Origin: Methylococcaceae bacterium
GTDB lineage: Bacteria; Pseudomonadota; Gammaproteobacteria; Methylococcales; Methylomonadaceae
Length of the DNA: 24,523 nucleotides
NCBI GenBank assembly: GCA_013140465.1
Contig: JABFST010000427.1
Coordinates: 1 to 24,523 of the forward strand
Direction of reading: 5' to 3'
A program made the position numbers and the translations under genes. The notes below the pieces were generated by a model that saw only the letters and a list, made by a program, of their open reading frames with translations, had not been told where the DNA came from and did not search any database. Of the stretch, positions 1-24,523 are shown piece by piece. How positions within the stretch are numbered: the stretch's first letter is position 1; the number at the start of each line of letters is the position of its first letter.

Positions 1-240
1 AGTAATAACTGGGGTCAAATAACTGGGATCAGAGTAAACTAAATAACTGGGGTCAGAGAAATAACTGGGGTCAGAGTAAACTTATATATCACTGAGCTGC
101 TTTTCCTTCCGCCAGCCAACAGGCCTACCCATTTTTAAATTTACTCTGACCCCAGTTATTTCTTCGCTTATACACCATACGCGCTGACCCCAGTTACGGC
201 ATTTAAGTTTACTCTGACCCCAGTTATTTCCAGTTATTTA
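1..240. repeat. Cluster of dispersed repeat family 1 (ACTGGGGTCAGAGT)
   Basis: Eight full or truncated copies of a unit with the core ATAACTGGGGTCAGAGTAAA lie here. Direct copies are at about 4-16 (truncated), 17-39 (one mismatch), 41-58 (truncated) and 59-81. Inverted copies are at about 139-161, 183-196 (truncated), 206-228 and 230-240 (fragment). Further copies are at 2200-2235 and 3092-3233. Such short, often inverted, intergenic repeats resemble REP/BIME elements mobilised in trans by REP-associated tyrosine transposases. No such transposase gene is in this window, so that link is an inference. Confidence 0.85.
59..161. repeat. 103-bp inverted-repeat unit, copy 1
   Basis: This unit has perfect 22-bp inverted ends (59-80 and 140-161), each a full family-1 repeat, around an interior of about 59 bp. 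By base-by-base reading it is identical over all 103 bp to 3092-3194, so it behaves as one duplicated or mobile unit. The interior holds a minus-strand open frame at 132-82 reading MGRPVGWRKEKQLSDI then stop. No ribosome-binding site decides whether it is translated, and it may be the captured 5' end of a gene. Confidence 0.8.
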
Positions 241-252
241 TGCTAGCCGTAT

Positions 253-349
253 AGGTTGGGTTGCCGTGCTTTTTGGCAACCCAACATCACCGCTCAATCA
301 TACCAACACCGCGTTTTTTCTGGGTTGGGCTATCGCCAACCCAACCTAC
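253..349. repeat. Palindromic GTTGGGTT repeat pair
   Basis: Two hairpins are visible. At 255-285, GTTGGGTTGCC pairs perfectly with GGCAACCCAAC over a 9-nt loop. At 322-342, GGGTTGG pairs with CCAACCC plus a one-base bulge. The outer arms (TAGGTTGGGTT near 253 and AACCCAACCTA near 338-348) also face each other, so the block is an imperfect BIME-like unit. It lies just downstream of the minus-strand gene ending at 400 and could help end its transcript. Confidence 0.65.
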
Positions 350-399
350 GCGGCTCCATTGATTTTGCTTGAAACATAACGACCACATCTTTTCATTTT

Positions 400-765
400 T
401 TAGGTTTCTTTGCTTCGTACAGAATAATAAAACCCTAAAATTGTACCTATTAGCGTACCTGAAAAAGCTAGAACCTCACTAAAGTAAGGACTCTTAAAAA
501 TGGCGGCAAAAAATACACCAAATATTAAAACAAAAACAACCCCAAAACCCAGTAAGGCAGGCATACGCTTATTTATACGTTCTGTCTTCGGTTCAGCTTG
601 CCCAATACCTCCACATACGCAGCATGGAATGCCAAAATATTCTTTGCCTTTAAGTTCATTTTCTTTTATGCAAACAGCACAAGATTGCCCATTTACCGCA
701 TTATTACAAGAACCTATTCCTGAGCAGTGAGCGCAAGGATAGAAATTAACCTTAATGTTATGCAT
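400..765 (-). CDS. Small membrane protein with CxxCxGxG zinc-finger motifs
   Basis: This 121-residue protein is not recognised as a named family. The N-terminal half (residues 11-55) has cysteine pairs of the type found in DnaJ zinc fingers: CAHCSGIG, a CAVC and CCVCGGIG. These suggest one or two zinc sites. The C-terminal half has two hydrophobic segments (about 69-91 and 96-113), so the zinc domain probably sits on one face of the membrane. The ATG at 765 is 24 bp downstream of the stop of the gene ending at 790, so the two are probably co-transcribed. The function is unknown. A DnaJ-like role would be speculative because there is no J domain. Confidence 0.6.
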   Translation of the reverse strand: MHNIKVNFYPCAHCSGIGSCNNAVNGQSCAVCIKENELKGKEYFGIPCCVCGGIGQAEPKTERINKRMPALLGFGVVFVLIFGVFFAAIFKSPYFSEVLAFSGTLIGTILGFYYSVRSKET

Positions 766-789
766 AGTTGCTAAAAAAGAGCCGAACTT

Positions 790-1092
790 TTAAATACGAC
801 GTCGAGCGCGAATAGCTGCGCTTGACATCATGATGTTGCAAAAATGAACGACATCGCTATAACTTCGAAGAGAATACACACCCCGCCCATATTTTCCTGT
901 ACTTTCTACATTATCACCAAATTCCCATTGGTGAACTTGAATATAACCTGAAGATGAATTTGCCCATACCTCAAATGAAGCAGCGTTGTATCTGTCAATG
1001 TAAACTTCGAACTTTCGGCCTCCATCTGTAATTTCGTAGCCTTGTTCATTAGCTACTTCCTTGATGATGTCGATTAATTTGTTAAAGTCCAT
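790..1092 (-). CDS. Hypothetical 100-residue protein
   Basis: No family is recognised. The protein is soluble, of mixed charge and rich in aromatic and beta-prone residues (for example KFEVYIDRYNAASFEVWANS), and ends in a basic RARRRI tail. There is no signal peptide or membrane segment. The ATG at 1092 follows a good ribosome-binding site (AAGGA about 6 nt upstream), which supports real translation. It precedes the zinc-finger membrane gene by 24 bp, forming a likely two-gene unit. Codon use is AT-rich like its neighbours and unlike the core genes further right, which fits acquired DNA. Confidence 0.55.
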   Translation of the reverse strand: MDFNKLIDIIKEVANEQGYEITDGGRKFEVYIDRYNAASFEVWANSSSGYIQVHQWEFGDNVESTGKYGRGVYSLRSYSDVVHFCNIMMSSAAIRARRRI

Positions 1093-1156
1093 ATTTTCCT
1101 TTTTATTTTTTGCCTGAAGGGGGGGGTATTAATGTTCAACTATATTTTATGTAAGA

Positions 1157-1183
1157 AATCAATGGAGTCTGACCCCTTTGATT
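1157..1183. repeat. Dispersed repeat family 2 (GGGGTCAGACTCC), full copy
   Basis: This is a 27-bp imperfect palindrome with the core GGGGTCAGACTCC read on the minus strand. AATCAA/TTGATT form the outer stem and GGGGT/ACTCC the inner stem, with one internal mismatch and a 3-nt loop. Matching full copies are at 2996-3022 and, split by an insertion, at 2239-2495. The core GGGGTCAGA is shared with repeat family 1. Confidence 0.8.
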
Positions 1184-1191
1184 GCCATTTT

Positions 1192-1220
1192 GTTGGTCGG
1201 GTGAAGCGCCGTGTTATGCG
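1192..1220 (-). other. Possible half attC (integron recombination) site
   Basis: On the minus strand, just after the PIN-like gene, the sequence reads CGCATAAC, then ACGGCGCTTCACCCGACC, then AAC. This looks like the left half of an integron attC site (R'' core followed by a GC-rich L'' arm). The complementary right half is missing; the expected place holds a family-2 repeat (1157-1183). A GTTGAAC (minus strand, 1140-1134) matching the GTTRRRY core occurs farther on, without a pairing arm. I see a half site only, so the call is tentative. Confidence 0.3.
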
Positions 1221-1247
1221 AACTTTCTTTGCCATTCATAGTTTGCC

Positions 1248-2066
1248 TTATAACAAATCTACTAAATTAGTTGGACGAATAGCTTCGGTGACACTACCTT
1301 TGAACTGATTTACTAATGGCCTATCTGTTGTAAGAAAATATTCACAATTTGACTCCTCGGCAGACCATAGGTGATAAGCGTCTAGGTATAGGTTATTTCT
1401 TTTGTCGCTGCCAACAGAAGAAATATTCAGTAGCTTTAATATTTCCTGAAATCTTATATTATCAATTGACATGAGAAATGGGTGCATGAGTTTCGACGCA
1501 TTTACTTTCAACCCTTGAGTTTCTCGAAGCCCAACAATGCCGGACCTAAAATTTAGCCTTGAATGGAAGCAGCCAACTGGAAGCCTGAAAAATTCGTTCT
1601 CTACTTTTTCATAAATAGTACTTTCAGCACTCGCTTTGTCGTTCCCCCAAAACTTAAATGGGAACTCGGACGTGTCATTCCCATTAAAGTTTTCCTGCGT
1701 CACTTTCAGAAGTGGAGAATGAATGATGTGACAAGGAGATCCCATCATTCTTCCGATTGCCAAGTCAACTTCTGGCTGAAACAATAATTCTAAATTTACT
1801 TCATGCGAGTAAACGAGGTCAATGCTCCCGCAACAGGCTAAATCTGCAATTTTCTTAATAGCAACTTTTTCCCTTTCAAGACATATATCGGCTTCTTCTA
1901 TTTCTTTAACTTCGTTTTCATAGACAAGAAACGTTGCATCTCTGCGTTCTCCACACTTAGAGGTAATAGTTCCTGCTTGCAATTTAGCAGATTGAACAAG
2001 TTTGACACTAGCTGCGTATCTGAAAATCGCCGTATCTACGAATATTTTTGGTTTATTACGCATCAC
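1248..2066 (-). CDS. PIN-like domain protein (putative RNase)
   Basis: The protein has about 272 residues. The N-terminus has a beta strand ending in Asp (IFVDT, D11). The C-terminus has the typical PIN pattern: an Asp-containing helix (YLDAYHLWSAEES, D229), then a cysteine and a strand ending in TTD (FLTTDRPL, D248). PIN domains use clustered acidic residues and Mg2+ to cut RNA, so ribonuclease activity is an inference. At about twice the length of a VapC toxin and with no antitoxin-like gene beside it, a simple toxin-antitoxin pair is not supported. The start may be GTG at 2066 or ATG at 2063; the ATG is more likely. Just upstream is a leader repeat (2082-2200) and the octamer CGCATAAC (2078-2085). 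Confidence 0.6.
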   Translation of the reverse strand: MMRNKPKIFVDTAIFRYAASVKLVQSAKLQAGTITSKCGERRDATFLVYENEVKEIEEADICLEREKVAIKKIADLACCGSIDLVYSHEVNLELLFQPEVDLAIGRMMGSPCHIIHSPLLKVTQENFNGNDTSEFPFKFWGNDKASAESTIYEKVENEFFRLPVGCFHSRLNFRSGIVGLRETQGLKVNASKLMHPFLMSIDNIRFQEILKLLNISSVGSDKRNNLYLDAYHLWSAEESNCEYFLTTDRPLVNQFKGSVTEAIRPTNLVDLL

Positions 2067-2081
2067 AATTTTTTTGGCGCA

Positions 2082-2200
2082 TAACTATAATTAGACATCC
2101 TATTCGACGCAAAACATTACGTCACTTGTTTGTCTAAATGGTTTATAAAATGTAAATTCATTTTTAAATCATTTACATACCTAATTTTAGTACGGCCTGA
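2082..2200. repeat. Leader repeat, copy 1
   Basis: About 120 bp nearly identical to 3876-4000. It starts TAACTATAATTA and contains two hairpins: GACGCAAAACATTACGTC (2106-2123, one mismatch) and ATGTAAAT/ATTTACAT (2150-2157 and 2171-2178). It lies directly upstream of the PIN-like gene in the same relative orientation as copy 2 upstream of the PEP-CTERM gene. Its far end is cut off by family-1 repeats. It could hold the promoter or be a mobile repeat. Confidence 0.75.
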
Positions 2201-2235
2201 ATAACTGGGGTGAATAACTGGGGTCAGAGTAAACT
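2200..2235 (+). repeat. Repeat family 1, two direct copies
   Basis: A truncated copy (about 2200-2211) is followed directly by a full copy (2213-2235) of the ACTGGGGTCAGAGT repeat. Together they interrupt leader repeat copy 1 at its far end. Confidence 0.8.
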
Positions 2236-2246
2236 AGGAATCAATG

Positions 2247-2487
2247 GAGTCTGACCCTAATACTGCTTCCTTAAAACCCTAACCAATTGTAATAATTACA
2301 TAAATTGTGATTAAGGATGCCGTTACGCGGATCAAAAATGTCCAACAACAGCGAAAAAGCCAACCTAGGGCTATTAAGCGCCGTCCTAAACATTATCCTT
2401 TGCTTATGACCCCACGACAACAGGCTTGTTCAACATTATGATTAATAAGGGTTAATATTTTAAGGAAGCAGTATTAGAGTCTGACCC
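2247..2487. mobile_element. 219-bp IS4-like deletion derivative with 11-bp target duplication
   Basis: The element spans 2258-2476. Its 19-bp terminal inverted repeats are perfect (TAATACTGCTTCCTTAAAA at 2258-2276 and its complement at 2458-2476). It is flanked by the direct repeat GAGTCTGACCC at 2247-2257 and 2477-2487. Removing the element and one repeat copy restores an exact 27-bp family-2 repeat (2239-2257 plus 2488-2495), so this is an insertion. A long 11-bp duplication and TAAT-starting ends fit the IS4 family, and the interior encodes an IS4-type transposase tail. Confidence 0.8.
2304..2441 (+). pseudogene. IS4-family transposase, C-terminal remnant
   Basis: Inside the 219-bp element, about 45 codons stay open up to TGA at 2439-2441. 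The translation includes QPRAIKRRPKHYPLLMTPR, which I recognise as the basic C-terminal tail typical of IS4-family transposases. The frame is closed upstream by a stop at 2301-2303, and the catalytic DDE core is absent. It is a relic of an internal deletion and cannot encode active transposase. A full parent element elsewhere in the genome could move it in trans. Confidence 0.7.
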
Positions 2488-2614
2488 CTTTGATTTGTGA
2501 CCCCTTTGATTTTATTTCTAGAATTTGCGACATTGCCCAGCCGCAACTAAGGCCTGACCCCGTCTTGATTGCTTTGGCTTCCCTTGTCGCCGCCGCAAAG
2601 CAGGACAACGATAG

Positions 2615-2905
2615 TCAGCGTATGAATGGGACAAAGCCTATGTGACAGGAATCACATACGATCTCTTCCCCCGAATGACCTGGCGAGGAAGGCACATAGT
2701 TCTGGCAATGCGGGCACACCCAATGGTAACCGCCGCACTCGGGGCACCTAGTATAGCATTCAGATTTAGGCTTAAGCAGATTGGTACCTTTCGACTTGAA
2801 GACGTTCAGAGCTATAGCTGCAATTCCCTTGGCAATTTCACCAGCAGACTCGTCTGCGGACTTGTCGTAGTAAGATGAACAGAAATTGCACCACATATGT
2901 AGCAC
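2615..2905 (-). CDS. Small zinc-ribbon protein
   Basis: The protein has about 96 residues and belongs to no named family I can identify. Cysteine pairs occur along the chain: CNFC near the start, then CPECGG, CPHC and CDSC in the second half, enough for two zinc ribbons. A short alanine-rich helical segment (about residues 22-36) separates them. There is no signal peptide or strong membrane segment. The start is GTG at 2905 or the internal ATG at 2896; neither has a strong ribosome-binding site. A partial leader repeat (3024-3091) lies upstream, separated by family-2 repeats. A nucleic-acid or protein-binding role is a guess from the fold type. Confidence 0.55.
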   Translation of the reverse strand: MLHMWCNFCSSYYDKSADESAGEIAKGIAAIALNVFKSKGTNLLKPKSECYTRCPECGGYHWVCPHCQNYVPSSPGHSGEEIVCDSCHIGFVPFIR

Positions 2906-2956
2906 TCCATACAGCGTTGATATGTTGGCCTAAATAAAGCCGTTCTCCGAAACAAA

Positions 2957-3022
2957 AATCAAAGGGGTCAGACTCCATTAAAAATCAAAGGGGTCAATCA
3001 AAGGGGTCAGACTCCATTGATT
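2957..3022. repeat. Repeat family 2, three copies in tandem
   Basis: Three copies lie head to tail: about 2958-2979, a truncated one at about 2984-2995, and a full 27-bp palindrome at 2996-3022 with core GGGGTCAGACTCC. They sit between the zinc-ribbon gene and its truncated leader repeat, apparently replacing the gene-proximal half of that leader. Confidence 0.8.
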
Positions 3023-3023
3023 T

Positions 3024-3091
3024 AAATTCATTTTTAAATCATTTACATACCTAATTTTAGTACAGCCTAAAAAAAACACCTGACCTATCAA
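3024..3091. repeat. Leader repeat, copy 3 (partial)
   Basis: About 68 bp matching the distal half of leader copy 2 (its part running to 4017). It is truncated on the left by family-2 repeats and on the right by the second 103-bp unit. It lies upstream of the zinc-ribbon gene in the same orientation that copies 1 and 2 have to their genes. Confidence 0.7.
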
Positions 3092-3194
3092 AAATAACTG
3101 GGGTCAGAGTAAACTTATATATCACTGAGCTGCTTTTCCTTCCGCCAGCCAACAGGCCTACCCATTTTTAAATTTACTCTGACCCCAGTTATTT
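3092..3194. repeat. 103-bp inverted-repeat unit, copy 2
   Basis: Identical to 59-161 over 103 bp, with the same 22-bp inverted family-1 ends and the same 16-codon interior frame. Two more family-1 pieces follow at 3195-3208 (truncated) and 3209-3233. The rightmost pieces run into the PEP-CTERM gene and supply its last codons and stop. Confidence 0.8.
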
Positions 3195-3828
3195 AACCCC
3201 AGTTATTTAAATTTACTCTGACCCCAGTTATTTCAACTGCTCCGATACTCAAAAGTAGTAACGTGGATGGCTCTGGGACCGGACCAGATGAAGGTAGGAA
3301 GCCAAGCGTAACTCTTAGTTTTTGTGATTGACCAACGGTATTTCCCATTGTCGTAGCAGTTTGGATATTTCCATCAATAGCATTCCCAACAGAGCTTGGG
3401 ATTGCATTGTTTCCAAGAGCAACAAAACTGGCTACGATGTTTCCGTATTGAGTTGGATTGCTTGAAAAGTTCAAAGCAATTTCTGCTAAATTCAGCCCAC
3501 CACCTGCTGGTGATTCGCGACCATATGAACCTTCAATACTTAAATACTCTCCATTTAAATTGAAAGTCCCATCGGAGTTAGAATAGTAAACATCGTAAAA
3601 TTCAGTCGAAACACCACCAAAATCGTTGTTTGATAAACCTAGCGTACCTGGTAGCTGCGTAGTTAAAGCTGTGCTATTTACTGCGAAAGTGAATGAATTT
3701 ACGCCCCCACTTGTTTCGTAAAAAGTGATGGAAGCTAAATTTGGTATTTGATAAACAGGCAGAGCTTGTGCTGAACCAGATATGGCAATAATTGACCCAA
3801 GAATAAAACGAGTCTTTTTCATCTTCAT
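3193..3828 (-). CDS. PEP-CTERM protein with repeat-truncated sorting signal
   Basis: The 211-residue precursor begins with a signal peptide (basic MKMKKTR, hydrophobic core, likely cleavage after SAQA near residue 22). The middle is Ser/Thr/Asn/Gly-rich, as is usual for these surface or secreted proteins. VPEPST at residues 184-189 starts a PEP-CTERM signal, which exosortase normally cuts and which needs a following transmembrane helix and an Arg-rich tail. Here the helix breaks off after LLLLSIGAV. The last 13 residues (EITGVRVNLNNWG) are translated family-1 repeat DNA, so the basic tail is lost and sorting is probably impaired. The ATG at 3828 has a good AGGA site upstream. The prsK and acyltransferase genes show that a PEP-CTERM system is present in this genome. 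Confidence 0.85.
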   Translation of the reverse strand: MKMKKTRFILGSIIAISGSAQALPVYQIPNLASITFYETSGGVNSFTFAVNSTALTTQLPGTLGLSNNDFGGVSTEFYDVYYSNSDGTFNLNGEYLSIEGSYGRESPAGGGLNLAEIALNFSSNPTQYGNIVASFVALGNNAIPSSVGNAIDGNIQTATTMGNTVGQSQKLRVTLGFLPSSGPVPEPSTLLLLSIGAVEITGVRVNLNNWG

Positions 3829-3875
3829 ATTTCCTATGAGTTGTGTGCTGGGCAGATGGCGGTTTGACGCCCGAC

Positions 3876-4017
3876 TAACTATAATTAAACATCCTATTTG
3901 ACGTAAAACATTACGTCACTTGTTTGTCTAAATGGTTTATAAAATGTAAATTCATTTTTAAATCATTTACATACCTAATTTTAGTACAGCCTAAAAAAAC
4001 ACCTGACCTATCAAAAA
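3876..4017. repeat. Leader repeat, copy 2 (longest)
   Basis: A 142-bp sequence starting TAACTATAATTA and ending in TATCAAAAA. It contains the palindromes GACGTAAAACATTACGTC (3900-3917, 7-bp arms) and ATGTAAAT/ATTTACAT (3944-3951 and 3965-3972). It begins 48 bp upstream of the PEP-CTERM start. Copies 1 (2082-2200) and 3 (3024-3091) are close relatives, cut short by other repeats. Confidence 0.75.
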
Positions 4018-20889: not shown

Positions 20890-21138
20890 GACAACTCTCG
20901 TAACAATAAAAAAGCAGCGGCGGGGAGATGGACTAAAAAGAGTCAGGGTAAACCCTACTTAAGTGGGCCATAGCATAGGTTATCAATACGCTTCTTGCAA
21001 GATTACCTGAGCATTACTCTAGGTTTTAGCCCATGCAGAAACTAAGCCGAGTTGTCTGGCTAATGTTTTAAGGTAGACGGCCTTGAGGTTATCATAAGCT
21101 TTAGTATCCACCGAACCCCACTCCAGAACACTCAGACT

Positions 21139-21798
21139 ATGAAACAAGGCTATTTTATTACCGGTACAGACACCAACGTAGGCAAAACCGTCGCAACAGT
21201 TGCCCTGATGCGTTATTTTAAACAGCAAGGGCAATCCGTGCTAGCCATGAAGCCCGTGGCGGCAGGTGCCGAGTTACAGCGCGGGCAGCTGCGCAATGAA
21301 GACGCGCTGTTACTGCAAGCAAATGCTACGGTCGATGTCGGCTATGACCTTATCAACCCTTATGTTTTTGCCCTGCCTGTGTCGCCGCATCTTGCCGCAG
21401 GTGATGCTACGGTTAGCTTAGAGGTTATCGCCGAACACTTTAACACGCTAAAACACTTGGCTGACATTGTGTTAGTTGAAGGTGCGGGCGGCTGGTATAC
21501 GCCGCTTAACGCCACCCAAACCATCTGCGACTTGGCGAGTGCCTTGAGTTTGCCTGTTATTTTAGTGGTGGCGGTAAAACTGGGTTGCCTTAACCACGCC
21601 CAACTTAGTTATCAGGCCATCGTGCAGTCTGGCAGCAGTTGCGCGGGCTGGCTTGCCGTCCATGTTGATCGCCAGCAATTGCTGCCCGAAGCCAATATTG
21701 CGACGCTACAAGCCCGCTTGCCCATACCCTTGCTAGGGGTTTTGCCCTTCCAGGATGACTTGGATTTTGATGTATTGGCGGGGTGTTTGGCGTTATAG
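21139..21798 (+). CDS. bioD: Dethiobiotin synthetase
   Basis: BioD (219 residues) closes the ureido ring of 7,8-diaminopelargonate with CO2 and ATP to give dethiobiotin, the next-to-last step of biotin synthesis. The P-loop GTDTNVGKT is at residues 9-17, the substrate lysine lies in AMKPVAAG (K38), and VEGAGGW is conserved. It is a complete single-domain enzyme of normal length. bioA, bioB, bioF and bioC are not in the window, so it is a detached biotin gene. A small hairpin (21797-21813, AGCCGA/TCGGCT) begins within the stop codon, and rlmB converges 30 bp on. Confidence 0.95.
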   Translation: MKQGYFITGTDTNVGKTVATVALMRYFKQQGQSVLAMKPVAAGAELQRGQLRNEDALLLQANATVDVGYDLINPYVFALPVSPHLAAGDATVSLEVIAEHFNTLKHLADIVLVEGAGGWYTPLNATQTICDLASALSLPVILVVAVKLGCLNHAQLSYQAIVQSGSSCAGWLAVHVDRQQLLPEANIATLQARLPIPLLGVLPFQDDLDFDVLAGCLAL

Positions 21799-21828
21799 CC
21801 GAGTAGGTCGGCTTTACAGCTACAGCCA

Positions 21829-22572
21829 TCAACGATAATGGCGTTGGCGCAACACCTCATACAGCAACACCCCTGTTGCCACCGACACATTCAGGCTATC
21901 CACCTGCCCCAGCATTGGCACTGCCACCAGCATATCGCAATGGTCTTTAGTCAAACGCCGTAAACCCGTGCCTTCTGCGCCCATCACCAAGGCCATCGGC
22001 ACAGTAAAATCAGTTTTATAAAGCACATCGGCGGTTTCCCCTGCCGCACCGATAATCCACAAGCCTTCGTCCTTAAGCCAGCGCAAGGTGCGCGACAAAT
22101 TAGTCACTTGATATACAGGCACGGTCTCCGCCGCGCCGCTGGCGACTTTGCATACAGTAGGGGTAATGCCCGTGGCTTTGTCTTTGGTGATAATCACGCC
22201 ATGCACACGCGTGGCATCTGCCGTGCGCAAACATGCGCCTAAATTATGCGGGTCTTGGATATTGTCCAACACCAAAAACAGCGCGGGTTCGTTAAGGTTT
22301 TCCACGGCGGTTTTGAGTTCGTGTTCGGTTAATTCACCCGGCATTTCCACGGCAATCACGATGCCTTGATGGTTGCTGCCGTCCGCCAAACGATCTAGGC
22401 GTTTTTTATCGACTTTTTCGGGGGTAATGCCTAGTGCCAATAAGTCTTCGCTCAGTTGGTTAAGGCGTTTGTCTTGCCGCCCGCTGTCCAGCCACGCTTG
22501 TTGGATTTTGCCGGGGGAATAATCAAGGGCGGCTTGGACGGAGTGTAGGCCGTAGAGTTTGCTGAGTTTCAT
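21829..22572 (-). CDS. rlmB: 23S rRNA Gm2251 2'-O-methyltransferase RlmB
   Basis: RlmB (247 residues) methylates the ribose of G2251 in the peptidyl-transferase region of 23S rRNA. An N-terminal substrate-binding domain (about 5-90; LYGLHSVQAAL) precedes a SPOUT catalytic domain. All three motifs are present: NIQDPHNLGACLRTAD, VMGAEGTGLRRLT, and DSLNVSVATGVLLYE, whose knot binds S-adenosylmethionine. In E. coli rlmB follows rnr directly. Here a phage-defence gene lies between them, ending 34 bp upstream of the rlmB start. Confidence 0.96.
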   Translation of the reverse strand: MKLSKLYGLHSVQAALDYSPGKIQQAWLDSGRQDKRLNQLSEDLLALGITPEKVDKKRLDRLADGSNHQGIVIAVEMPGELTEHELKTAVENLNEPALFLVLDNIQDPHNLGACLRTADATRVHGVIITKDKATGITPTVCKVASGAAETVPVYQVTNLSRTLRWLKDEGLWIIGAAGETADVLYKTDFTVPMALVMGAEGTGLRRLTKDHCDMLVAVPMLGQVDSLNVSVATGVLLYEVLRQRHYR

Positions 22573-22606
22573 GAATTAATAAAAAGGTGCAATGGTGCTG
22601 TTTTAG

Positions 22607-24355
22607 TTAGATAAGATTTGCTAATTGCAGTGCCAACAAAGCAGGGTCACTAAACGTATCGCTCAGGCCAAGTGCTTCGATTAGATCAAATTGTGATTTG
22701 TAAGTTTTAAAATACCGTTCATGCGCGTAAGTTGCTTTACTAGATGCGAGGTTTATTTTTTGACGCTCAATTGAGTTAAGAATGGCGTCAAAAACCATAG
22801 CATAAGCACTTTCTAAGTGTTCCTTAGCAAACCCCGCTGATTTATCTCTAAGTTTATAAATACCATAAGCCATCAACTCATCCGCAAATAAAACAAAATC
22901 GGCTTGATCGTTTTGTGCTTGGCGTTGGGCGACAACAAACTCATAAATCCAAAACGCTTCCAGCAATTGCTGATACACAGGCGAATCTCTACCGCCATCA
23001 AACAAGCGGTTCAAGTCATTCTTAGGATTATTGGTGGCATCAAAAAGCTCTTCTAGCACTTTTGATTTTGCGCTTTTAGCTTTTACTGGTTGTTCATAAA
23101 ATGTGGCATACCAAAATTTAAGCACGGTTTCACTGTGTACGGCTTTTTGTAAGGTGATGCTCATTGGATCGTAAAAAGTTTCGCCACGTTTGCTTAAATA
23201 AGCAATACCCGCATTGGCAAACACTTCTTTGGCGTAATCGTTAAATCGGCGTGTGCTGATTTTATCGCGGAAATTAATAGGCGATTGCGTATTGGTGGCT
23301 TCGGTGATTTTATCGATGAGATCAGCATCCGTGGTTTCATAAAGCCTGACCACGACATAGACGCCTATCAAGGCATTTGGACTATCACGATAAATATCGT
23401 ATATAACGTGTGTGGTTTGTAAACCATTGACGATAACTGGATTGAGGACTTCCAATGGGTAAACCCCCGCCTGCATATCATTAGGCAACTTAAGCCGCTC
23501 GGCAATCAGGGTGATACCATTATTTAAAAACGGGAAGTATTCCGCATCATGGCTGAGCAAGGTATCACGAATATTTTTGTTGGTTTTGTTATATCGCAAA
23601 AAATCACGGACATTATCACTAAACAGGGCATCAATCCGCTTATTAACAACTTGCTCGTAATCTAATAACTGACAAAGCTCTAAAGCCGATAAGCGAAAAT
23701 TGACAGCTTTGACATTTTTAATGGAAAAAGAGATTAAGGCTTGCGGGTCGTTGCGAAAAGAAATATTAGATTTTTCGGCTTTAAAACTAAAGGCAACGGG
23801 TTTGCGTTTTTTTCTTTCCGCCACCAAATTATCAATTTGTTGGTATAAATCGTTGCTGTCAAAAATAAGCAGGTTTTCCGTGTTATTGGCATGACGGTTT
23901 AACAGTGCTTCGTTTTGCTTAGTTTTGTCGCCTTTAAAAATAAAATATAAACGGACATTAATGACCCGGCCTGATTGGGTCCATTGTTGATAAGTATCAA
24001 AAACCGAACGTACTTTTTTGTTGAGCGGCAACGCGAGGGTGTTGCCATCGACGAATAAGTTACGGTAGTCGCTAATAAATTTGCTGAGTTCATTATCACC
24101 TACCGTAGGTGCGGACTTAACCTGAAAGACATGCAAAGTATTGTCGCCGTCATCTTCTTCCAGATAAAGCCCGTCAAAACCGCCATCATGGCTGCCACTA
24201 CGGTTTTCAAGCGTGGACACCCCATCGTACACTTCATCAAAACTTAAATCTAAAATAGCGGCTATAGCCAAGATTTCAAAGGCCAGCGGCTTAGGCAAAC
24301 TGAATTTTTCGGCGATTCTGTCGATATAACCGCTAAAAAAAAGTTCTTTGTTCAT
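22607..24355 (-). CDS. AIPR-family abortive-infection phage-resistance protein
   Basis: This 582-residue protein carries the AIPR domain (abortive infection phage resistance, Pfam PF10592) at about 245-405, recognised by NVRDFLRYN, FPFLNNGITLIAE and NPVIVNGLQTTHVIYD. The N-terminal part has a restriction-nuclease-like signature: D61 in GGFDG, then Q78-V-K80 in VFQVKS, a PD-(D/E)XK pattern of the Mrr type. Nuclease activity is an inference. The ATG overlaps the rnr stop by one base (TAATG), so it is translationally coupled to RNase R, and rlmB follows after 34 bp. The gene is more AT-rich than its neighbours, which suggests it was inserted into a housekeeping operon. AIPR proteins have been linked to phage defence; the mechanism is not known. 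Confidence 0.9.
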   Translation of the reverse strand: MNKELFFSGYIDRIAEKFSLPKPLAFEILAIAAILDLSFDEVYDGVSTLENRSGSHDGGFDGLYLEEDDGDNTLHVFQVKSAPTVGDNELSKFISDYRNLFVDGNTLALPLNKKVRSVFDTYQQWTQSGRVINVRLYFIFKGDKTKQNEALLNRHANNTENLLIFDSNDLYQQIDNLVAERKKRKPVAFSFKAEKSNISFRNDPQALISFSIKNVKAVNFRLSALELCQLLDYEQVVNKRIDALFSDNVRDFLRYNKTNKNIRDTLLSHDAEYFPFLNNGITLIAERLKLPNDMQAGVYPLEVLNPVIVNGLQTTHVIYDIYRDSPNALIGVYVVVRLYETTDADLIDKITEATNTQSPINFRDKISTRRFNDYAKEVFANAGIAYLSKRGETFYDPMSITLQKAVHSETVLKFWYATFYEQPVKAKSAKSKVLEELFDATNNPKNDLNRLFDGGRDSPVYQQLLEAFWIYEFVVAQRQAQNDQADFVLFADELMAYGIYKLRDKSAGFAKEHLESAYAMVFDAILNSIERQKINLASSKATYAHERYFKTYKSQFDLIEALGLSDTFSDPALLALQLANLI

Positions 24356-24523
24356 TATTTCTTACGCCGCTTCTTCTTAACCTTACCGCTACCATCCGCT
24401 GTTTTCGCCGAACCCTGTTTTTGCAGCAACTCAAAATCGATTTTCTTTTCGTCCAAATCCACGCGGGCAACGCGTATTTTTACGCGGTCGCCTAAACGGA
24501 AATTAACGCCAGTGCGTTCACCT
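24355..24523 (-). CDS. rnr: RNase R, C-terminal end (partial)
   Basis: Only the last 55 codons lie in the window; the 5' part runs off the right edge. The translation GERTGVNFRLGDRVKIRVAR followed by VDLDEKKIDFEL is the end of the S1 RNA-binding domain of RNase R, and the basic tail KKKRRKK is typical of the enzyme. RNase R is a 3'-5' exoribonuclease that unwinds and degrades structured RNA. The stop TAA (24357-24355) shares its last A with the start of the AIPR gene. Confidence 0.92.
   Translation of the reverse strand, partial: GERTGVNFRLGDRVKIRVARVDLDEKKIDFELLQKQGSAKTADGSGKVKKKRRKK

Follow-up and report, generated by a model that had tools for sequence, protein, structure and literature searches.

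Core-flanked defense hotspots are known. The available text on cDHS1 and cDHS2 of Pseudomonas aeruginosa describes many systems within one species, with cDHS1 spanning 1 to 224 kb (median, 26 kb) (PMC10250203). There, as at the locus described here, defense genes lie between fixed core genes and do not obviously belong to one group of mobile elements, and homologous recombination in the flanks is the route of transfer proposed there (PMC10250203), as it is by us here. The slot behind rnr differs in being mostly 0.6 to 4 kb long, in lying between closely spaced genes, and in being common to genera of one family. Defense systems of the E. coli pan-genome likewise occupy recurring chromosomal places; however, the terms rnr and rlmB are absent from the main text of that report (PMC10121019), and the E. 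coli rnr-rlmB junction carries no large insert. Hotspots in P2-like phages and P4-like satellites hold varied defense cassettes at one fixed place, with AIPR among the domain abbreviations of a legend (PMC9122126). Those hotspots are carried by phages or satellites, according to the available text of that report (PMC9122126), whereas no phage gene was found among the proteins scanned here.

In this study, we describe the stretch that follows the rnr stop codon, usually up to rlmB, and propose that it is a small defense slot within a housekeeping operon of a methanotroph family, with the AIPR gene described here as one resident. We give this reading, including the way of working proposed below, a probability of about 0.7. 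A small slot embedded in an operon, with codirectional and often overlapping cargo, is a variant of the core-flanked hotspot. No earlier report of a defense slot between rnr and rlmB was found, by title or abstract opening, among the matches listed.

An AIPR gene overlaps rnr and precedes rlmB

The window is the whole stretch of DNA that was analyzed (24,523 nucleotides) and represents the entire contig C492 of a draft genome (507 contigs; completeness, 83%; contamination, 2.5%). At its right end, the minus strand carries the 3' stub of rnr, the AIPR gene, and rlmB, in that order:

24355 to 24523, minus strand: 3' end of rnr (RNase R), the last 55 codons plus the stop codon TAA at 24355 to 24357; the contig ends inside the gene
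24353 to 24357, minus strand: TAATG junction, rnr stop TAA and AIPR start ATG with one A in common
22607 to 24355, minus strand: AIPR/AbiU1-type gene, the slot cargo here; 582 amino acids, ATG start; matches to AIPR (PF10592) and PADLOC AbiU
24074 to 24355, minus strand: N-terminal region of the AIPR protein, residues 1 to 94, with the Mrr-like nuclease signature D61-x16-Q78-x-K80
22573 to 22606, minus strand: AIPR-rlmB gap, 34 bp from the AIPR stop to the rlmB ATG
21829 to 22572, minus strand: rlmB, the downstream flank, named by family as the 23S rRNA G2251 2'-O-methyltransferase gene; SpoU_methylase, 1.2e-43

The initial annotation described this arrangement correctly: an AIPR gene lies between rnr and rlmB, its start shares one base with the rnr stop, and it is more AT rich than its neighbors (GC content of 40.3% versus 53.2% for rlmB and 47.3% for the rnr stub; GC3 of 0.40 versus 0.59 for rlmB). 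As also claimed there, rnr and rlmB are neighbors in E. coli K-12, where they are 179 bp apart. The extent first given to the gene, 22607 to 24523, needs trimming, since the AIPR open reading frame (ORF) covers 22607 to 24355 and the stretch from there to 24523 is the rnr stub. That stub encodes a lysine- and arginine-rich tail and matches RNase_II_C_S1 at 2.4e-4, under the curated cutoff. The remainder of rnr is found in the same genome on contig C26, at its beginning; a stretch of 201 residues there shares 99% identity with the sister genome G012, and with the ends of C492 and C26 joined across a 20-base overlap, 249 of 249 C-terminal residues align at 98% identity to G012.

The rnr/AIPR junction sequence ends ...GTAAGAAATAATGAAC. 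The AIPR start is well fixed because an in-frame TAA lies three codons upstream of the ATG and because N2 is invariant in 80 aligned sequences. On the other side of the gene, blastn alignment with G012 picks up again 2 bp 5' of the rlmB ATG. No integrase was found among the window and cargo proteins scanned (a subset of ORFs), and ARAGORN found no tRNA in the window. Elsewhere in the window, positions 1 to 4000 at the left end have a GC content of 38 to 42%, versus 46 to 54% for the remainder up to 22 kb, and a bioD-like AAA_26 gene at 21139 to 21798 is convergent with rlmB, with 30 bp between them.

The AIPR protein has conserved nuclease-type residues

The window's AIPR gene is the only AIPR match found in its genome. 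Its product matches PF10592 over residues 245 to 501 (4.5e-44; 151.8 bits versus a curated cutoff of 25) and, at near full length, the PADLOC profile of AbiU, which was reportedly first described from Lactococcus (residues 8 to 509 to profile positions 7 to 486 of 537; 1.5e-47). In these two respects, it resembles the AbiU1/AIPR family. It differs at its N terminus, which looks Mrr-like here, whereas the available text of one paper states that AIPR proteins have an N-terminal HEPN domain (PMC3506569). The same source describes the family as frequently associated with restriction-modification (R-M), whereas no R-M gene was found among the window neighbors scanned. The available text of a survey of HEPN domains treats AbiU2 and does not contain the word AIPR (PMC3710099).

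We examined the N-terminal region in 80 aligned sequences, all of which match the AIPR family. Residues E27, E41, D61, Q78, and K80 are invariant in all 80. Three of these residues, D61, Q78, and K80, form the pattern D ... (E/Q)-x-K, which we take to be the active-site pattern of Mrr-type PD-(D/E)XK nucleases. The Pfam family Mrr_cat (PF04471) matched 37 of the 80 sequences at E values up to 0.05 (best, 1.6e-4), with no match to the window protein; the related AIPR protein of G222 scores above the Mrr_cat cutoff. The scan of the 80 sequences returned 11 families, none of them HEPN, and a profile search gave no PDB sequence at E values up to 1. From these residues, we infer that the window protein is an Mrr-type nuclease fused to an AIPR domain, and membership in the family suggests that the gene acts in phage defense.

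Defense-type cargo alternates between rnr and rlmB

We searched 237 genomes of the family for rlmB and the rnr C terminus. Among the matches listed for both genes, the interval could be set for 104 genomes (31 in the genus and 73 outside), with distances read by eye, overlaps entered as 0, and an approximate value for G195. The count leaves out G015, where the locus meets a contig edge, G175, whose flanks fall on separate contigs, and genomes with the two genes on different contigs. The interval exceeded 500 bp in 20 of the 104 genomes, and 18 of these 20 held cargo of probable defense or toxin-antitoxin type. In all of these 18, which exclude G064 and G182, cargo and rnr run in the same direction. 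The kinds of cargo were AIPR (7 intervals), an AAA ATPase with an unplaced partner (6; G178 has both of these), PDC-M03 (3), HicA pairs (2), and Uma2/PDC-S03 (1). The 20 long intervals hold the following:

G000, G006, G075, G076, G167, and G172 (the last with an extra 102-amino-acid ORF): AIPR
G178: ATPase, partner, and AIPR
G012, G020, G038, G083, and G165: ATPase and partner
G063 (relatives: G062 and G065): PDC-M03A/B, HipA_C-like and HIRAN-like by Pfam matches under curated cutoffs
G045 and G179: HicA toxin gene and small partner
G183: Uma2 gene, which matches PADLOC PDC-S03
G182: ATPase fragment of 83 amino acids
G064: 7.5 kb; the two ORFs scanned are a GGDEF-EAL protein with hemerythrin and PAS domains and a BTAD regulator, not known defense genes

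The comparison across relatives proposed in the initial annotation thus returned different defense-type cargo in different genomes. It also showed that AIPR is not fixed in all relatives, because the lineage stands at the rnr-rlmB junction in 8 of the 237 family genomes: the seven with AIPR above and G175, which has AIPR beside rlmB and the 102-amino-acid ORF beside rnr on two contigs. The same core genes flank at least five kinds of cargo in 18 of 104 measured intervals, as in a core-flanked hotspot.

Within the genus, full-strength RlmB was found in 32 of 35 genomes (none in G003; weak matches in G004 and G028). Apart from G015 at its contig edge, the interval was readable in 31, of which 27 were empty (from overlap to about 290 bp) and 4 were occupied, by AIPR in G000 and G006 and by a 462-amino-acid AAA ATPase with a 191- to 200-amino-acid partner in G012 and G020. 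The slot AIPRs of G000 and G006 are 78% identical. Close relatives carry different cargo: AIPR in G000 versus the ATPase pair in G012 (rlmB, 97% identical) and AIPR in G006 versus the ATPase pair in G020 (rlmB, 95% identical).

The ATPase matches AAA_15/AAA_21 (best PADLOC match, HEC-02A) and is followed by a partner of 187 to 200 amino acids in G012 (L040:4836-6833), G020, G038, G083, G165, G178, G068, and G166. This partner had no Pfam or PADLOC match where scanned. We regard the pair as a candidate two-gene defense system.

Three further features of these loci were observed. The 102-amino-acid ORF between rnr and AIPR (L079:837-1145 in G172; L097 in G175) has no Pfam or PADLOC match. The PDC-M03A-like gene of G065 (L084) is split over two frames, and rnr of G165 (L176) lies in several frames beside an intact ATPase pair; either may reflect assembly error or decay.

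Long intervals are absent from one control pair but also occur beyond the family

As a control we used phoB-phoR, also a close pair in the window, in 111 family genomes sampled evenly and read by eye. With both genes on one contig, no gap exceeded 500 bp (0 of 99), and the longest was 408 bp (G161); G205, with the genes on two contigs, was left out. The difference between 20 of 104 and 0 of 99 gives a P value of 7.7e-7 by Fisher's test, uncorrected for relatedness and against one control pair. Among the 44 genomes measured for both pairs, rnr-rlmB was occupied in 6 and phoB-phoR in none.

Beyond the family, we sampled the class with 114 genomes, one per family, including the window's own. Both genes lay close together on one contig in 84 of the other 113 (by eye), and 16 of these 84 intervals exceeded 500 bp by match coordinates, a rate similar to that within the family. 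The loci of all 16 long intervals and 4 with shorter gaps were fetched, and Pfam was run on ten ORFs taken from 9 of the 16 long intervals. By genome, these yielded an OmpA-like lipoprotein in four, PLD in one, an Imm33-like gene plus a caspase domain in one, and no family in three; some of the other seven long intervals probably reflect a long rnr tail. Long intervals with mostly ordinary genes suggest that the rnr-rlmB gap is permissive more widely. As far as was sampled (Pfam, 9 of 16 class intervals), recurrent defense content was seen only in the methanotroph family. G237 (L179), from another family of the class, has the Imm33-like gene and the caspase-domain protein between rnr and rlmB.

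In E. coli, the 980-bp junction was matched in 5,375 of 5,426 genomes, and one place covered at least 80% of it in 5,373 of these 5,375; because the search merges fragments separated by as much as about 1 kb, this excludes only inserts above that size. Of 30 matches listed, the 29 that were junction rows spanned 891 to 981 bp. A universal defense hotspot at rnr-rlmB was considered and rejected, given that E. coli has no large insert and that the class ORFs scanned were mostly ordinary.

Defense-type genes also follow rnr when rlmB is elsewhere

Forty further loci were fetched downstream of rnr. Five had rlmB beside rnr after all (G036, G094, G099, G195, and G231). In seven genomes, defense-type genes directly follow rnr, with rlmB on another contig:

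G068, G166, and G039: ATPase (the G039 copy is shorter, near a contig end)
G222 (L131:307-2046) and G226 (L132): a second AIPR lineage, 40 bp after rnr, 45 to 46% identical to the window's
G227: PIN gene behind a 75-amino-acid ORF
G228: protein with N6_Mtase and HSDR_N matches

Since defense-type genes follow rnr even with rlmB elsewhere, the rnr end seems to be the steadier side of the slot. In the remaining loci, read by eye, rnr is followed by ordinary genes, short contig ends, or an IS200-like transposase gene (G229, by Pfam; G225, by eye); a similar look-alike was seen by eye in G226. A PIN gene lies about 150 bp past rnr in G090.

We then counted the cargo families wherever they occur. 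At E values up to 1e-60, the family has 15 AIPR matches: 8 in the slot, 2 after rnr with rlmB elsewhere, and 5 elsewhere. Nine of the 18 ATPase matches follow rnr, and at least 6 of the 18 are away from it (G021, G208, G224, G226, G229, and G233); for those of G095, G143, and G190, the position of rnr fell outside the matches listed. Copies of the ATPase with its partner away from rnr occur in G233, G226, and G224.

Cargo junctions are often tight and may couple expression to rnr

At least one junction overlaps or lies within 6 bp in 11 of the 16 occupied loci tabulated; the other 5 are looser. The rnr stop codon and the start codon of AIPR share sequence in G000, G006, G075, and G076. The AIPR stop lies 2 to 6 bp before rlmB in the six carriers besides G000 (G006, G075, G076, G172, G178, and G167). 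The last 4 bp of the ATPase partner, its stop included, lie within the start of rlmB in G083, G038, and G165; G012 and G020 show no such overlap. A promoter scan of window positions 20900 to 24523 gave 2 sites (5.9 expected), and each lies inside AIPR on the minus strand. The same span has 10 terminator-like sites, counting both strands, versus 4.9 expected; of those on the minus strand, the one at 23968 to 23952, inside AIPR, falls after the rnr stop and before rlmB begins.

The initial annotation held that AIPR expression is tied to RNase R, and the overlap and orientation of the genes are consistent with such a tie. Read-through and coupled translation are likely, given that the genes overlap and run in the same direction and that the rnr tail is purine rich. 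We propose that the slot accommodates one short module, or occasionally two, of defense or toxin-antitoxin type and codirectional with rnr; these modules often abut a flanking gene within a few bases or share start- and stop-codon bases with it. The rnr transcript would continue through the module into rlmB, and ribosomes finishing rnr would restart immediately on the AIPR ATG, aided by the purine-rich codons of the rnr tail. The result would be steady, low AIPR expression without a promoter of its own. Upon infection, the putative N-terminal Mrr-type PD-(D/E)XK nuclease, together with the AIPR domain, would cut nucleic acid. Modules probably enter, leave, or replace one another at the gene edges through recombination in flanking sequence, without a dedicated element.

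If the housekeeping operon does drive the cargo, new systems would need no promoter of their own, and unplaced slot genes, such as the 187- to 200-amino-acid ATPase partner, would be good candidates for new defense genes. Defense genes of this kind may be missed when only islands are searched. With two fixed flanks, single modules, and no large island, the slot offers a small, clean place to study the exchange of immune genes.

The cargo appears old, and its history bears on the alternatives

Across six carriers, AIPR and rlmB plus rnr yield trees of identical topology; an AU test compared two trees of that one topology and so shows agreement only. Because the AIPR tree matches the core tree, AIPR looks like an old resident that was patchily kept and often lost. 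It looks neither fixed in the slot nor like a clear recent arrival there. This divides the earlier suggestion that AIPR marks a preferred insertion site: the varied cargo and the control comparison support a preferred site, whereas the match between trees argues against a fresh insertion. The slot ATPases form one group, split with support of 100 from the copies of G208, G224, G226, and G233, which have neither rnr nor rlmB beside them. In the wider AIPR tree, the GLR68 copy, whose locus is elsewhere, nests weakly (support, 57) within the slot copies, and G167 joins G075/G076 (94), whereas the rlmB tree unites G167 with g20 (55); these placements count mildly against pure vertical descent. Nucleotide and third-position profiles did not clearly point to imported flanks. 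G000 and G012 are more alike near the junction (third positions of rlmB 90, 72, and 75% along the gene), a trend also present in several empty-slot pairs; the ungapped G006/G020 profile was left out because of an indel. The tree and junction pattern fits two old residents, each with its own junctions, that were lost, swapped, or combined (G178). A single old arrival may lie behind each of the two slot lineages, AIPR and ATPase, which would mean fewer independent insertions.

A possible alternative, which we consider doubtful, is that the ancestor of several genera had an array of rnr, ATPase, partner, AIPR, and rlmB from which lineages deleted part or all, so that exchange is only apparent. 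G178 carries both modules in that order today, G182 keeps its ATPase fragment, and the array would account for the topology shared by AIPR and core trees and for the separateness of the slot ATPases. However, agreement among six taxa is a weak test of topology, and the junctions point the other way: AIPR overlaps the rnr stop in four of the six AIPR-only genomes, the partner overlaps the rlmB start in three of the five ATPase-only genomes, and deletion from a tandem array would need to remake such overlaps each time. The array also leaves PDC-M03, the HicA pairs, Uma2, the second AIPR lineage, and the PIN and R-M-like cargo unexplained.

The remaining explanations each seem improbable to us. 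AIPR could be an ordinary accessory gene that landed by chance in a merely permissive gap, the defense flavor of the other cargo being coincidental. AIPR genes are widespread, with matches in 109 plasmid and 10 phage records (all below 60% identity), several of the 16 long class intervals carry nondefense genes, and so does that of G064; still, chance does not sit well with the excess over phoB-phoR (uncorrected for relatedness), with 18 of 20 intervals of defense or toxin-antitoxin type, all codirectional, or with sister genomes that differ in cargo. The genomes sampled are nevertheless not independent, and the gap may simply be permissive. It is similarly unlikely that a functional tie to RNase R or rRNA methylation, such as protection of RNase R from phage attack, keeps the cargo beside rnr, as opposed to the convenience of the site. 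The seven genomes in which cargo follows rnr with rlmB on another contig would suit such a link, as would the nuclease- or nucleic-acid-related families among the cargo types, but these types are mutually unrelated, other genomes of the methanotroph family carry the same kinds of gene at sites away from rnr, and 84 of the 104 measured genomes have no interval above 500 bp. The operon defense slot remains our preferred reading. More speculatively, the rnr tail could be an allelic defense locus: a few competing modules (AIPR, the ATPase pair, and others), each with its own junctions, would be kept across genera, exchanged by recombination with no dedicated element, and expressed solely because the rnr tail offers ribosomes an entry to any ATG behind it.

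Related modules lie behind other genes

Other housekeeping genes may likewise be followed by these modules, with AIPR after a glyA-like gene and the ATPase after a pheS-like gene (both by eye). In GLR68 (L108; same coordinates as G231:C133), an AIPR copy 68% identical in sequence follows the glyA-like gene and precedes two more ORFs, defense related by eye. Three further AIPR copies of the genus, those of G024, G026, and G017 (L170, L171, and L172), on other contigs beside polysaccharide-synthesis-like genes (by eye), are 57 to 60% identical to the fully sequenced slot copies. In G233 (L177:1-2111), the ATPase-partner pair outside the slot lies on the same strand as, and after, an apparent pheS end (by eye).
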